From the NCBI GenBank assembly GCA_037893245.1, contig JBAIAA010000102.1:930001-994000 (forward strand): a stretch of DNA of 64,000 bases. The letters run 5' to 3'. Positions 44,009-51,063 of this stretch are shown here, in pieces. Numbering within the stretch: position 1 is the first letter of the stretch; each line of letters opens with the position of its first letter. A program made the position numbers and the translations under genes. The notes beneath the pieces were generated by a model, which was given only the letters and a program-made list of their open reading frames with translations, was not told the origin of the DNA and ran no database searches. The DNA is from Crossaster papposus (taxonomy: Eukaryota; Echinodermata; Asteroidea; Velatida; Solasteridae).

Positions 44009-44122
44009 GGTCACTAGAGCACGTCTATTCCCCCGAGGGACTGTGAGTGACCAAAAGGGTGAAATAGGTCTTTCTTTTGGTCACTCACAGGCCCGAGAGG
44101 GGAAAGACGTGCTCTAGTGACC
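44009..44122. repeat. Palindrome, 114 bp
   Basis: ggtcactagagcacgtct at the left end is mirrored by agacgtgctctagtgacc at the right end. The centre contains a second mirrored pair, tgtgagtgaccaaaag and cttttggtcactcaca. It is the first of a chain of palindromes extending to 46597. Confidence 0.9.
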
Positions 44123-44597: not shown

Positions 44598-45918
44598 TTG
44601 CCCGCTTCGGGAACTATTTCCCGCAAATTCACGGTGGCGCAAATCTCATGCAACAGCCTATGTTTATTAGTTAACCCCACGTGACCGTGTTTCAGCCAAC
44701 CAGAATACAGAACTAGCAAGAGGTGTGTTATAATGCTACATATGCACCGGCGGCGCTCCATTGTTCAATGGCATGCAGATATCAATTCAGGTGTAGGCCC
44801 ATTATTTAGACACTGATATGCCATGTCACATATGAAGTAAGATATGGGACAGAGAGAACTGTATACTACGGAAGCCCGTTAGGGCCAGGTACCTCTTTCT
44901 CTTTCACAGAGGTTCGTTTCTCTTTCACAGAGGTTCGTTTCTCTTTCACAGAGGTTCGTTTCTCTTTCGCGGTGGTGCGTTTCTCTTTCAGAACGTGTGT
45001 CTCTCTCTTTCAAGGGGCAAGTCCATTTTTCACAGGGGTGCATTTATCATGTATTGCGATTAAGTCGCGGCCGCGAGTTAGTATGTCGCGGCCGCGACTT
45101 ATTATGTCGCGGCCGCGACTTAATTATGTCGCGGCCGCGACTCCCCAACTCGCGGCCGCGACTTAATTATGTCGCGGCCGCGACTTACTAACTCGCGGCC
45201 GCGACTTAATTATGTCGCGGCCGCGAGTTAGTAAGTCGCGGCCGCGACATAATTAAGTCGCGGCCGCGAGTTGGGGAGTCGCGGCCGCGACATAATTAAG
45301 TCGCGGCCGCGACATGGGGAGTCGCGGCCGCGACATACTAACTCGCGGCCGCGACTTAATCGCAATACATGATAAATGCACCCCTGTGAAAAATGGACTT
45401 GCCCTTTGAAAGAGAGAGACACACGTTCTGAAAGAGAAACGCACCACCGCGAAAGAGAAACGAACCTCTGTAAAAGAGAAACGAACCTCTGTGAAAGAGA
45501 AACGAACCTCTGTGAAAGAGAAACGAACCTCTGTGAAAGAGAAAGAGGTACCTGGCCCTAACGGGCTTCCGTAGTATACCCCTTTAATAATATGATAGCG
45601 GCGCTGCGGTAAACTTGAGGTCAAAGTTCAAGTAGTGTTTTTAAATAGAACAAACTTGTCCAAACGGGAAAGGGTGTTATACCAAATATATTGACGCGCT
45701 CTTTGTTGGTGTTCTGATATGGGCTTTCAGATCGTTGATAGTAGTTAGCTGATTAGTTAGTTAACTGTGCATGTGCTGTGTGCAATAACACACGTTTTGC
45801 TAGTTCTGTATTCTGGTTGGCTGAAACACGGTCAGGTGGGGTTAACTATTATAGGCTAGTGCATGAGATTTGCGCACCGTGAATTTGCGGGAAAACGTTC
45901 CCGAAGCGGGCATAGACT
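44595..45918. repeat. Outer inverted repeat enclosing the NotI palindrome
   Basis: 44595-44738 (cccgcttcgggaactatttc ... agaatacagaactagcaaga) is the reverse complement of about 45780-45918. The two arms are about 140 bp each with scattered differences, so the outer arms are older or less constrained than the inner palindrome. Confidence 0.88.
44861..45579. repeat. Large palindrome with 14 phased TCGCGGCCGCGA dodecamers
   Basis: Arms begin gtatactacggaagcccgtt and end with its complement. Going inward there is a 20-21 bp ladder (tctctttcacagaggttcgt, three copies on the left and four on the right), then a unique segment. The core holds 14 dodecamers starting at 45065, 45086, 45107, 45129, 45150, 45172, 45193, 45215, 45236, 45258, 45279, 45301, 45322 and 45343. 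The spacing is 21 or 22 bp and is mirror-symmetric around 45209.5. Confidence 0.95.
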
Positions 45919-45959: not shown

Positions 45960-46180
45960 CAGTGCGTAAGTCCAGGGTTTACGCAACAAATTGTGACACA
46001 GCACTAGTAAGTTAGACACTTTGAGGCAAAAATGAAATTTGAGATTTTGATTTCATCATTTGAAGCTTGTTTAGCTTTAAATGATGAAATCAAAATCTCA
46101 AATTTTATTTTTGCCTCAAAGTGTCTCATTTACTCGTGCTGGGTCACAATTATGGCGTAGCTTGCGCAGTCAATTATTAG
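45960..46180. repeat. Palindrome around 46071
   Basis: gacactttgaggcaaaaatg and aaatttgagattttgatttc on the left are mirrored on the right up to 46127. Weaker matching extends to about 46180. The loop is short (gaagcttgtttagctt). Confidence 0.88.
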
Positions 46181-46239: not shown

Positions 46240-46590
46240 AACCATTTGCGTGTGGAATTTAAATAATATCTTGTTCACACAGCTTGGCACAGTTTGACTT
46301 TAAATTATCCAGACCAAAATACACTGTTGCTATATCACGTGATTCGGGGCAAGCTCTTGCATAGTAGTTAGAGACGCTCAGCACCAATACATTGTTCATA
46401 ATGGTTGAGAATGGTACAAAGACACCAGACCATTCCAGAGCCGGGGGTTGCTAGCGTAAGGCTTGCTCCGAATCACGTGATATAGCAACAGTGTATTTGG
46501 TCTGGAGAATTTAAATGTAAACTGTGCCAAGCTGCGTGAACAAGTCAGTGTACCAGATATTATTCAAATTCCACACGCAAATGGCCAATT
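46240..46590. repeat. Inverted repeat with 120 bp arms
   Basis: 46240-46357 and 46460-46590 mirror each other, including accatttgcgtgtggaattt, cagcttggcacagttt and actgttgctatatcacgtga. The spacer is about 100 bp. It is the last palindrome before the LINE region. Confidence 0.88.
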
Positions 46591-47097: not shown

Positions 47098-50000
47098 CAA
47101 TTTATTTATTTATTTATTCCATTTCTTTACCCAGGGTGTGCCCAAACAGTTTAAAACTGGTTTTCATTGGGGCCCTGCATACATCATCAAATAAAATAAC
47201 AGTACATATTATAAATACAAGGATATTACAGGAATTCTAAACATTAATACTAATTCTGATTTACGAGATAGGCAAAAACCCGCCAAATAAAAAACCTTTT
47301 AGGTGAAAAATAAGAAGGGGAAATTCCTATCCGGCTCCACATTATAGTGGCAACCAAGTTCTAACTCCGTAGATCAGCGCAATTGGCATAATATCTAACA
47401 CTCAGATGGCATGTCGGAGCTCTGATTTAAATGTGCTTAATGAGTCCAATGTTCGCAATTGTTCGGGCAGATTATTCCAAATATTTGCACCACTCACAGC
47501 GAAACTTGTGGCGTAGCATTCTTTTTTGGCGAAAGGAACTTTCAGTGCCGTGTGGGTTGATTGCCTTGTTTCGCGAATTACTGTAAGTGGTTTGAAAATA
47601 TTTGTCATGTACAAAGGAGTCATTTTGTTGATACTTTTGAAGACAAGAATAGCCTTTTTTGACTTGACTCTTTTTGAAAAAGGGGTCCAATTAAGACGAG
47701 CAAACATATCCTCTGAAGGGGTGAGGAAGGGACATTTAAGGATTATCCGCGCGGCTCTTTTGAGACATTTGTTTAACATATTATCGTGAGATATGTACCT
47801 TCCTCCCCACACAGTACAACAATACTCTAATGTTGGCATAACTAGACTTACAAATAGTGTGTGCAAGCTGTGCTGAGGAATACAATCACGGATTCTTCTT
47901 AGTATACCTAATTTAGACACCACATTTTTTCTTACGTATTCGACATGTGGGCCCCAACTTAATGCTTCATCAATAATTACACCCAAACATTTATAAGACT
48001 TCACATTTTCAATACGACTACCAGCAATGCATACATTTAAATTAACATTAGATATTTTCTGCCTAGTACCAATAAGCATGCATTTGGTTTTGGTGGCATT
48101 TAAAGCTAGCTTGTTTCTTCCGCACCAGTTGTGAAAACTAGTAAGAGCTGTATTTAAGCTACTTTCTATTATATTAATGTTGGAGGAGCTACACGTTAAT
48201 GTTGAGTCATCTGCATACATAAATAAGTTGCAGTTTGGGGCAATACAAAATGGAAGGTCACTAGTATAAACAATGAATAAAAGTGGACCTAGTATCGACC
48301 CCTGTGGAACACCAGTGTTTACGGACAGGACCTTTGATATGGTGCCGCCAATATTCACAGACTGACTACGTTCACTTAGGTACGACTTAAACCAATTTAT
48401 TACAGAAGATGACATGTTCATCCTTTCTAGTTTCTTTAGTAAGATTTCATGATCAACACAATCAAATGCTTTACTGAGGTCTATAAACACACTGCCTGTA
48501 ACTTGTCCATTCTCCATGGCCGCAAAACACTTGTTTGTCAAGTCATGTAGGGTGCTTTCAGTTGAGTGCAGGGGTCTAAATCCCGACTGGCAACTAGGAA
48601 TCAGATTGTTTTCATCAAGATATCTATATACCGATGAGTGCACCCATCTTTCTAAAATCTTAGAGATAATTGGCAGTATAGAAATTGGACGATAGTTACC
48701 TGTACTACATTTATCTCCTCCCTTGTGAATTGGTGTTACTAAAGCATGTTTCCAATCTTTAGGGTATCGCTCACATCTTATAGACAGGTTAACAATATGA
48801 GTTAAAGATTTAATGATATAAGGTGAAGCAATTTTAATCATTTTAACACTAATTCCATCCGGACCTGTTGCTTTCCCAACCGACATGGATGATATTTGCT
48901 TTCGAACAAACTCTTCTGTAATGTTAGGTACTACGCAATCTTCATCAACAGAATCAAATATAGAGGCGTCAGTATTGTCATCTATTTCAAGTTCACGCAA
49001 AGGGTAATTTCCAGCAGTACGCTTGCCGATTGTTGAAAAGTGTTCATTTAATGTATCAGCAATGTCGGCGATATTGTCAATATTTTCCCCATTTGGGGAA
49101 GTAATCGAATTTGGTACAGTTTTTTGTTTCTTAGGGAGTACCTCCTTCAGAGTTTTCCACAGCATAGAAGAGTTGCTTTTATTTTCTTCTATGGCGGATG
49201 TGTAGTAATTACTCTTTTTACTGCGGATTTTATTAGTAACATTGTTCCGCAGGTTTTTGTATGAATCCCAATGAATTTGTAAGCCTGTGTGCTTTGCAAT
49301 TTTGTGTACACGATCGCGCTGCCGCATAAGTTTAAGAATTTCGCTATCGAGCCACGGTACTGAGGCACCCCGAATGCGTTTGGTTTTGACTGGCGCATGG
49401 AGGTTAATAATACTCATAAATATGGAGTACCATATAGACCATGCATTATCCACATCATAACAACCAAAAACATCTTGCCATGGTGCATTACGGAGATCGT
49501 CCGTAAATGCATCACTGTTTATATTTTGTAGACATCGAAAATTTATTGAACGACCTTTCATTTTTGGTGTTTTCCAACTGTGTAGCCCATAAACAAGATA
49601 ATGATCACTGATTAGGACTGGTAAAACACCACAGTCCTTTATGAGCTCTGGGCGGGAACTAAAAATGAGATCGATGGTAGTTTTAGTAGATTCAGTGACA
49701 CGTGTTGGGTCATGTATGAGTTGCGCCATTTGGAACAAACTAAAGCAAGAAATAATTGGATTTGATTGCATACTATCGTATTCCTCTGAAACATCACAAT
49801 TAAAGTCCCCAGTTGTAATAATTTCTTTACATTCACACGAGGCCTTATTAAGGATATCACTCAGTTTTCCCATAAATTCGACAGAGCTTGAAGGAGGCCT
49901 ATAAATAGAACTGATAAGAACAGGCTGTCTTTGTTTACACTTAATTTCAACCCATATACACTCGACATCATCTATTTCGAGATCTTCACGACGAGAGAAC

Positions 50001-50575
50001 ATTAGGGTATCTCGAATGTAAATTGCAACCCCGCCACCATGTCGGTTCCTGTCTTTTCTGACAATAGAATAATTTGGTAGAGTTATTTCGTCATCAGAGA
50101 TTGAGGCGTCGCAAAAAGTTTCGTTTAGACAGATGATGTCGAATGGATTTTTAGACATTACAATCTTAAAATGGTCAAATTTGTTTATGAGGCTTCTTAC
50201 ATTAAGATGGGCGAATGAGAAACCCTCTGAACTTTGATTGCAGATAATACCATCTGTTATGTCTATTTTAGAACCTTGCCTTGTGGGTTGAGCAGCTCCC
50301 TGACCATTTTCAGATGTTGGTTCCACTCCTGGCCTCGATAATGTGTCGGGGCGGGTGCTCTGGTCTGGGATACTGGCACGGAACGTTGGGACCTGCACTA
50401 GCACTAGCACCAGCGAATTCGAGAAAGAAAAGCCTCGATCGAAGGAACAAATGCAACAATCATCATGTACTTTGCAACAACGGCACATTGCTATGGAGGA
50501 CGCCATGTTTGTTGATGTTTGATACCCACTATAGGTCACGTGACTTAGAGGGCGCAATCGGTCTATATAAAAGGT
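47098..50575 (-). mobile_element. Near full-length CR1/L2-like LINE
   Basis: Spans the intact ORF, a 300 bp 3' UTR and a terminal (AATA)n tail read on the minus strand at 47117-47100. The 5' end is taken at the TATA-like box near 50570. The first 160 bp at its 5' end recur in opposite orientation at 46838-46985, immediately left of the 3' tail. Confidence 0.8.
47402..50506 (-). CDS. Intact non-LTR retrotransposon ORF: endonuclease plus reverse transcriptase
   Basis: About 1034 residues from the ATG at 50506 (ORF open upstream to 50689). I chose this start because of the context aacATGG and a TTTATATAG box about 60 bp upstream on the same strand. The product nicks target DNA and reverse-transcribes its own RNA. 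An apurinic-type endonuclease shows HLNVRSL, NETF, TGDFN and SDH. The RT domain shows motif A FIDLSKAFDCVDHEILL, motif B GVPQGSILGPLLF and motif C FMYADDS. The N-terminus is Cys-rich (CRCCKVHDDCCIC). No stop or frameshift is seen, so it could be active or very recent. Sequence style fits the jockey superfamily (CR1/L2/Rex-like); the exact clade needs a tree. Confidence 0.93.
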   Translation of the reverse strand: MASSIAMCRCCKVHDDCCICSFDRGFSFSNSLVLVLVQVPTFRASIPDQSTRPDTLSRPGVEPTSENGQGAAQPTRQGSKIDITDGIICNQSSEGFSFAHLNVRSLINKFDHFKIVMSKNPFDIICLNETFCDASISDDEITLPNYSIVRKDRNRHGGGVAIYIRDTLMFSRREDLEIDDVECIWVEIKCKQRQPVLISSIYRPPSSSVEFMGKLSDILNKASCECKEIITTGDFNCDVSEEYDSMQSNPIISCFSLFQMAQLIHDPTRVTESTKTTIDLIFSSRPELIKDCGVLPVLISDHYLVYGLHSWKTPKMKGRSINFRCLQNINSDAFTDDLRNAPWQDVFGCYDVDNAWSIWYSIFMSIINLHAPVKTKRIRGASVPWLDSEILKLMRQRDRVHKIAKHTGLQIHWDSYKNLRNNVTNKIRSKKSNYYTSAIEENKSNSSMLWKTLKEVLPKKQKTVPNSITSPNGENIDNIADIADTLNEHFSTIGKRTAGNYPLRELEIDDNTDASIFDSVDEDCVVPNITEEFVRKQISSMSVGKATGPDGISVKMIKIASPYIIKSLTHIVNLSIRCERYPKDWKHALVTPIHKGGDKCSTGNYRPISILPIISKILERWVHSSVYRYLDENNLIPSCQSGFRPLHSTESTLHDLTNKCFAAMENGQVTGSVFIDLSKAFDCVDHEILLKKLERMNMSSSVINWFKSYLSERSQSVNIGGTISKVLSVNTGVPQGSILGPLLFIVYTSDLPFCIAPNCNLFMYADDSTLTCSSSNINIIESSLNTALTSFHNWCGRNKLALNATKTKCMLIGTRQKISNVNLNVCIAGSRIENVKSYKCLGVIIDEALSWGPHVEYVRKNVVSKLGILRRIRDCIPQHSLHTLFVSLVMPTLEYCCTVWGGRYISHDNMLNKCLKRAARIILKCPFLTPSEDMFARLNWTPFSKRVKSKKAILVFKSINKMTPLYMTNIFKPLTVIRETRQSTHTALKVPFAKKECYATSFAVSGANIWNNLPEQLRTLDSLSTFKSELRHAI

Positions 50576-50621
50576 CTGTAAGAAAATAGCGCAGCTAGCC
50601 GCAACGTTTTGGTTGCGTAAT

Positions 50622-51063
50622 GGCCCCTTACACAGGGCTGCGACCTTTGTGCCAGCTTTGAAAGACAAACATTTGGCCAGGACGCTCAATGGTCGCCTAA
50701 ACCCAGAAAATCATGTTTCTTTGTAACTGCTCCAGTGATCCTTGTGCCTCCCGAGCGTGACCATTTGGGCGACTAATGTGCCTCCACTCTCCAACCACGG
50801 CAACGATTGAAACCCCCTTCTGCCCCATTTGAGCCACCTTTGAGCAACCATCTCCGTCCTCGGCGACCTTTGTGCGACGTTTTGAACATGTTCAAACATT
50901 TACGGCGACCATGGTGTCCATGGGGATGTATGAACCTTCCGCGTACCACCTTTGAACGACCTAGGCAACCATTCTGCCTCCTTTGAGCCTCCAACGGTGA
51001 CCTGGCAAATTGTATGGTCGCACAAGATAGACGCAAAGGTCGCCATCTATATGTTAAGGGGGC
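50622..51063. mobile_element. Inverted-repeat element rich in GCGACCTTTG
   Basis: ggccccttacacagggctgc + gacctttgtg is imperfectly mirrored by cgcaaaggtcgccatctata + tgttaagggggc. Variants of gccacctttgagc recur throughout. Confidence 0.72.

Follow-up and report, generated by a model that had tools for sequence, protein, structure and literature searches.

The locus and the element

Within the window, as we call the whole 64-kb stretch of DNA analyzed here, the dodecamer TCGCGGCCGCGA occurs in 14 exact copies, every one of them within 45065-45354 and placed, from start to start, 21, 21, 22, 21, 22, 21, 22, 21, 22, 21, 22, 21 and 21 bp apart; both the count and the order of steps given in a first-pass annotation of this DNA were reproduced exactly. 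The giant palindrome described there is likewise real, as positions 44896-45209 and 45210-45523 form an inverted repeat with 314-nt arms that are 98% complementary and have 0 nt between them, and the ladder of about 20-bp units that the arms contain consists of direct repeats of 21 bp (Table 1). When folded as a single strand, the 707-nt element reached -476.6 kcal/mol, compared to a mean of -114.8 for 20 shuffles. The extent previously assigned, 44861..45579, is that of the palindrome but not that of the element proper, since 6 bp at either end of it belong to a target duplication. We found that the palindrome ends sharply (TACGGAAGCCCG..CGGGCTTCCGTA) with GTATAC adjoining on either side, and because this duplication is self-complementary, the apparent palindrome is 6 bp longer per end than the element. 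The observed/expected ratio of CpG was 1.57 in the element vs. 0.87 in the window, whose GC content was measured at 39.5% rather than the approximately 37% given earlier.

Table 1. Features of the element and its immediate borders (window coordinates).
Feature	Position	Strand	Remarks
Left target-site duplication	44861-44866		GTATAC, 6 bp
Non-autonomous foldback element	44867-45573		707 bp, TACGG...CCGTA
Left arm	44867-45064	+	198 bp, terminal TACGGAAGCCCGTTAGGGCCA up to the array
Left-arm direct repeats	44896-44990	+	21-bp unit TTTCTCTTTCACAGAGGTTCG, 4.5 copies
Array	45065-45354		14 TCGCGGCCGCGA dodecamers, 21/22-bp steps, 9- or 10-nt spacers
Center	45205-45226		Mirror axis 45209/45210 inside quasi-palindromic spacer 45205-45214
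Right arm	45355-45573	-	219 bp, one 21-bp unit more than the left arm
Right-arm direct repeats	45429-45544	-	21-bp unit, 5.5 copies
Right target-site duplication	45574-45579		GTATAC

A separate repeat of ~140 bp occurs in inverted copies at 44599-44737 and 45785-45912, one on either side of the element. We rejected these outer inverted repeats as part of the element, as they belong to the separate repeat, for which there were 892 first-look candidates genome-wide (40 of these scored) and which was present in one place only in each of 19 other loci examined (~3 kb each). None of these 19 outer-repeat loci (L010-L028) spanned the junction as a paralogous empty site. Three more inverted repeats in the window (44009-44122, 45989-46151, and 46317-46498, with arms 88, 92, and 97% complementary, respectively) are possibly other MITE-like insertions, and a 1095-aa open frame at 47402-50689 on the minus strand, with endonuclease and reverse transcriptase domains, belongs to a non-LTR retrotransposon.

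Phasing of the dodecamers across the genome

The 1.02-Gb genome contains 1540 occurrences of the dodecamer, compared to 18 of a reversed control. Among pairs of intact dodecamers, 752 stand at a step of 21 bp, 544 at 22, six at 23-41 and none at 12-20, so that 1296 of the 1302 pairs at steps of 12-41 are separated by 21 or 22 bp, which is approximately two helical turns (mean step 21.42). The search for this spacing elsewhere in the genome that the first-pass annotation had proposed therefore returned the same spacing, and random spacing in other copies, which it had named as grounds for abandoning its reading, was not found. There are two step sizes because the spacers are 9 and 10 nt long. 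The remaining 244 of the 1540 dodecamers lack an intact neighbor at 21 or 22 bp on one side, and would be array ends, neighbors of a dodecamer with a substitution, or isolated copies. It had also been stated that all copies lie on one face of the helix. This is true between neighbors but not for the whole array, along which the position drifts by 171 degrees over 14 copies at 10.5 bp per turn; placing the entire array on one face requires a helical repeat of ~10.7 bp. Given this drift, exact one-face phasing along the whole array is unsupported at 10.5 bp per turn, and pairwise rather than global phasing is defensible.

A dispersed family with its own ends and target duplications

The end motif TACGGAAGCCCNNTAGGGCCA was found 251 times in the genome (132 forward, 119 reverse), and its reversed control 0 times. 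Among the 100 places listed of these 251 there were 33 pairs of forward and reverse motifs, 32 of which span 449-1246 bp and one 11,581 bp. Using the end motif with one substitution allowed, we delimited 27 distinct copies: the window copy, four loci from the dodecamer listing, and 22 out of 30 loci retrieved with the top matches to the window arm, for which 40 of 466 candidates had been scored. As 22 of the 27 were taken from the best arm matches, the sample is biased to young copies, and as all were delimited via the end motif, they are on their own no test of that motif; one of them (L038) begins TACAGA. Exact 6-bp target duplications border 20 of the 27 copies, and all 20 are different sequences, while the exact duplication is absent from the other seven, from two of them by one base. 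The feature in the window is a mobile element with TACGG..CCGTA ends and 6-bp target duplications, and it belongs to a dispersed family. The first-pass annotation, which had read it as a multi-site binding array or a rolling/hairpin replication product of very recent origin or under active maintenance, had missed the transposon ends, the target duplication and the relative predicted to code for a transposase; its recent origin was borne out, whereas hairpin or rolling replication as a general route was not.

Near-perfect palindromes are a known class of assembly artifact, and a collapsed or inverted read is one way in which the structure could have arisen. We rejected this explanation and give it practically no credence, as the copies are found on many contigs with flanks of their own, and the 20 exact duplications differ from copy to copy. 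Regular, phased, CpG-rich sites might equally be expected of a host regulatory or chromosomal binding array that is not a mobile element, but the dispersed copies, the transposon ends and the differing target duplications make this extremely improbable, and a host array or satellite as the origin was also rejected. The host could still have put the array to use later.

At C101:1056373-1056426 and C196:1365399-1365452, the end motif occurs twice on the same strand, 33 bp apart, and the left flank of copy L034 (contig C624) resembles the end of another copy; both observations may reflect self-insertion or local duplication. Ends of the CCCAATAGG type, including those of copy L005, mark a diverged sister subfamily of shorter elements (449-773 bp in eight listed pairs). 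The L005 arm is ~11% different from that of the 11.6-kb copy described below, and a CCCAATAGG-type copy at C31:3576075 was absent from the genome-wide lists of 21/22-bp dodecamer pairs.

An 11.6-kb relative with a predicted transposase gene

The longest pair of end motifs delimits an 11,581-bp copy on contig C55 that starts at 916103 and has the same terminus at its right end (927683), with the 6-mer GGATAG before the left end and after the right end. Unlike the copies delimited by the end motif, this one was found by arm similarity, and it has a TA..TA-type end motif at both ends. Its 198-bp left arm and the left arm of the window copy differ by 0 substitutions. The copy was read outside 920701-927629, and its dodecamer array is known at the left end, where 24 dodecamers stand at 21/22-bp steps with spacers of the forward types only. 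A short tandem array with a unit near AACAATGCATTTAAAGAGT (L089, ~C55:920050-920240) also lies within this element.

We searched the genome with the profile of PF24764 (integrase core), chosen as the query because we presume it to be the IS3EU transposase domain, and obtained 150 scored matches among 434 candidates. One match, C55:917962-918414, falls inside the 11,581-bp end pair. The gene model that we read there by eye from the sequence comprises exon 1 (917608-918411), a GT-AG intron and exon 2 (919057-919386), and predicts a protein of 268 + 109 = 377 aa. Exon 1 matched PF24764 with an E-value of 4.8e-24; in a Pfam scan, exon 1 gave this family only and exon 2 gave none. Among nine aligned sequences of the same genome, D158 and E191 are in the 21 columns that are invariant (9/9), and the first D is present in all seven sequences that cover its position; in our reading, these three residues would be the catalytic DDE triad. 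A search for relatives of the exon 1 protein with solved structures returned 0 at E 0.1. The predicted transposase gene could move non-autonomous copies of the window type. A second PF24764 match of equal score (86.1 bits), at C980:263955-264407 on the minus strand, is possibly another coding copy.

Superfamily assignment

According to the parts of the reports available to us, IS3EU elements are characterized by TA..TA termini and 6-bp target duplications (PMC10045372, PMC12730594), and one set of fungal IS3EU families ends with TAYGG..CCRTA (PMC12730594). The present family has such termini, including both ends of the 11.6-kb copy, together with duplications of 6 bp (exact in 20/27 copies, and GGATAG on both sides of the 11.6-kb copy), and the predicted 377-aa product with its PF24764 match would provide an integrase-like DDE transposase. 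Its ends and duplications match the IS3EU superfamily, and the three features would all be shared with IS3EU/GingerRoot elements; what differs is that internally repetitive ends, a dodecamer array or spacer-free palindromic derivatives are not described for those elements in the parts of that literature examined. The fungal TET-bearing IS3EU families also carry TET/JBP and alpha-kinase genes (PMC12730594, as far as the accessible text goes). A TET/JBP gene of the present element was rejected, as the two matches in the genome are both on contig C797, outside the C55 element. These TET/JBP matches, and genes with introns such as the one predicted in the C55 copy, mark the genome as eukaryotic. 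Its long inverted ends, internal tandem repeats and palindromic copies also place the family among foldback-type (long-TIR) elements.

Other superfamilies make target duplications of similar length. Those of Dada elements are ~6 bp, and Polintons are 15-20 kb long with polymerase B and capsid genes. The 6-bp duplication is common to Polintons and the present family, in which the places listed yield no pair longer than 11.6 kb, a copy read outside 920701-927629. Six-bp duplications beyond IS3EU are also reported in the accessible portions of the literature for Polinton (PMC10045372) and hAT6 (PMC12730594). Nevertheless, with TAYGG..CCRTA ends and a PF24764 integrase-core transposase predicted in the 11.6-kb copy, we consider it very unlikely that the element belongs to a superfamily of this kind. 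Membership in the Galileo/P superfamily, which is recognized by 7-8-bp duplications and a THAP transposase, was rejected, since here the duplication is 6 bp and the Pfam scan of the C55 exons gave only PF24764; CACTA membership was rejected in the absence of CACTA ends and 3-bp duplications.

Spacer order and the formation of the palindromes

We sorted the spacers into a few types, A (CTTAATTATG), B (CTTACTAAC), C (CTTATTATG), D (GTTAGTATG), and E (CTCCCCAAC), with these forms and their reverse complements almost equally frequent. Across 26 copies (the old sister copy L005 being left out), we counted 27 switches of spacer orientation at which the ladder remains unbroken, 21 at an intact dodecamer and six at a substituted one; in the window copy, orientation flips at the eighth dodecamer (45215-45226). 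With self-complementary spacers counted as possible switch points, 21 of the 26 copies have one, two have two and three have three. The numbers of units before and after the switch differ widely, and the 26 window-type copies have arrays of 7 to 40 units and arms of 156 to 240 bp, whose lengths mostly change by 21 bp at a time.

Copying of one arm from the other through a hairpin should leave mirror pairs of spacers on either side of the switch. We found mirror-type switches at one of the 27 positions vs. 9.3 expected under independence, and the alternation of 10- and 9-nt spacers was kept at 24 of 27 switches vs. 283 of 417 neighbors within same-orientation runs (p 0.029; these statistics treat related copies as separate and, because the copies share ancestry, the switch counts are not independent and the p-values are indicative). 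The central mirror run was 0 units in 18 of 23 copies, with a mean of 0.61 vs. 1.23 in permuted pairings; in this test, an axis inside a quasi-palindromic A spacer was admitted, self-complementary spacers were coded as A, and L008, L030, and L041, which misfit the one-switch form, were omitted. The mirror symmetry that had been ascribed to the array is present in the window copy, apart from one unit that is not the same in both halves, but a central mirror unit is missing from most of the copies tested.

Read in the same direction, left and right spacers are identical at 8/10 positions for type A, 6/9 for C and 6/9 for B; D and E, which are rarer, reach 4/9 and 2/9. With a dodecamer that equals its own complement and commonest spacers that partly do, arrays that are inverted relative to each other are also direct repeats in register, and deletion or exchange between the end-arrays would explain why the ladder is unbroken, why spacer lengths alternate and why unit numbers vary. 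The spacer order suggests in-register deletion between the two inverted end-arrays, rather than hairpin copying, as the origin of the palindromes. Hairpin-templated or rolling replication, in which one arm is copied via fold-back priming or template switching, would account for the perfect continuity at the center and the 98% complementarity of the arms, as well as for the window copy and L034, both of which are mirror-symmetric over four units about an axis in a spacer. The order of the outermost spacers is also more alike within copies than between them (end match 0.61 vs. 0.50 in 23 copies, reached by 0.5% of permutations), which speaks against full independence of the two ends. However, the near-absence of mirror-type centers is joined by an edit distance over the whole spacer order that is no smaller within copies than when permuted (0.509 vs. 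0.519), and by equal arm lengths in only 6 of 27 copies, below the shuffled mean of 9.7. We therefore disfavor the rolling/hairpin product as a general route and regard it as improbable.

The order of spacers serves as a fossil record able to separate deletion from hairpin copying. More generally, the family points to an uncomplicated way in which palindromes with zero spacer may arise: inverted ends built from palindromic repeat units are repeated directly as well, so that an ordinary deletion is enough to produce a giant palindrome.

Age and conservation of the copies

Within a copy, the two arms are on average 1.3% different (27 copies), compared to 2.0% between copies, and the mean arm difference is ~0.7% once L005 is left out. 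Together with the exact duplications, this upholds a recent origin, in a sample biased to young copies. Relative to the nearest type, the 27 copies have 17 substitutions in 6228 bp of dodecamers and 25 in 4622 bp of spacers, a count that misses slots with more than three substitutions; CpG transitions make up 12 of the 17 dodecamer substitutions. Among the 26 younger copies, the dodecamers were not significantly better conserved than the spacers (15/6144 vs. 14/4565, p 0.58). The two rates agree within error and give no overall indication that the dodecamer is under selection; youth suffices to explain its state, and the active maintenance that had been suggested receives no support. In L005, the one old CCCAATAGG sister copy, substitutions amount to 2/84 in dodecamers vs. 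11/57 in spacers (p 0.0017), and five of its seven dodecamers are unchanged while the spacers differ. This contrast hints at function, although it comes from one copy in which two spacers may be of another type rather than mutated.

Proposed mechanism and role of the array

We consider it highly probable that a cut-and-paste DNA transposon of the IS3EU superfamily gave rise to the feature, as a non-autonomous foldback copy that transposed recently, with an array that serves for docking, palindromes made by deletion, and spread in trans. The dodecamer array would be the subterminal part of long inverted ends and would act as a docking platform for multiple dimers, by which the transposase or an accessory factor recognizes and synapses the ends, with neighboring sites facing almost the same side of the helix. 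The left and right arrays, inverted but directly homologous, would then be prone to in-register deletion through single-strand annealing, slippage or unequal exchange. Such a deletion would remove the coding interior and leave a spacer-free palindrome with an unbroken 21/22-bp ladder, after which the palindromes lacking a transposase would spread in trans and their array length would keep shifting via unequal exchange. By analogy with Galileo and CACTA, a transposase-docking role is likely, and the multi-site protein-binding array proposed in the first-pass annotation is plausible as these precedents fit it.

The main rival to the docking role is a neutral minisatellite: the same transposon with an array that sits in its ends, where the transposase binds only the outermost arm. 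Its quasi-palindromic units would recombine easily, leading to expansion and contraction, and the observed range of array and arm lengths and the similar decay of dodecamers and spacers in the 26 window-type copies are in line with this possibility. On the other hand, the phase is held in 1296 of 1302 pairs despite two spacer lengths, both of them giving about two helical turns, the diverged L005 retains most of its dodecamers unchanged, and every one of the 27 copies retains at least seven units. A neutral array is thus a real possibility, albeit one that we find somewhat doubtful. A more elaborate and, in our opinion, unlikely form of the docking model is that the array is a methylation-sensing synapsis platform that sheds the gene into foldback decoys, or titrators, of the transposase. 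Dimers of the transposase or of a CpG-reading partner would bind cooperatively to the 12-bp palindrome, with its four CpGs every two turns, only when it is unmethylated, and the self-complementarity would cause the element to continually shed its gene and become spacer-free foldback copies. If true, the element would be a built-in generator of its own non-autonomous parasites.

Comparison with known systems

The end architecture described here was not met in the IS3EU literature examined. An IS3EU element with a subterminal or palindrome array was not found among the literature titles and beginnings of abstracts listed, a scope that lies outside Repbase and most subscription journals; the dodecamer itself appears in 13 papers, and a transposon is named in none of their titles. 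With the present family, the IS3EU superfamily gains a concrete end architecture (an arm, 21-bp repeats and a phased palindromic array) plus a candidate transposase, which makes end recognition testable.

The CACTA elements, including En/Spm, similarly have many copies of a short motif near their ends, but their subterminal motifs are irregularly spaced and the motif is not known to be a perfect palindrome. In the available parts of a report on these elements, the many short motifs next to the ends (12 bp in En-1) are bound by a protein that the element itself encodes, the GC-rich part of the motif is suggested to be methylation-sensitive, and the elements differ from ours in their CACTA ends and 3-bp duplications (PMC2613891). 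A likeness is also seen in the "2-TIR" copies of Galileo (P superfamily, Drosophila), which, in the portions of the reports consulted, share the long repeat-bearing ends, internal transposase sites and many two-end copies (PMC3688188, PMC3573991, PMC4168063): the THAP domain of the Galileo transposase binds several sites in internally repetitive ends (PMC3688188), and the tandem repeats in the ends vary in number, with two-end copies being common (PMC3573991). Galileo differs in its 7-bp duplications, THAP-type transposase and units of ~140-210 bp, not described as self-complementary in those portions, and its two-TIR class has a short middle region between the ends. Tetris and Foldback elements (Drosophila virilis and others) differ in that the units of Tetris are ~220 bp and seeded satellite arrays, with 12-bp palindromes unmentioned in the text available, but they too are apparently non-autonomous foldback elements with internal tandem repeats in their ends (PMC4079207).
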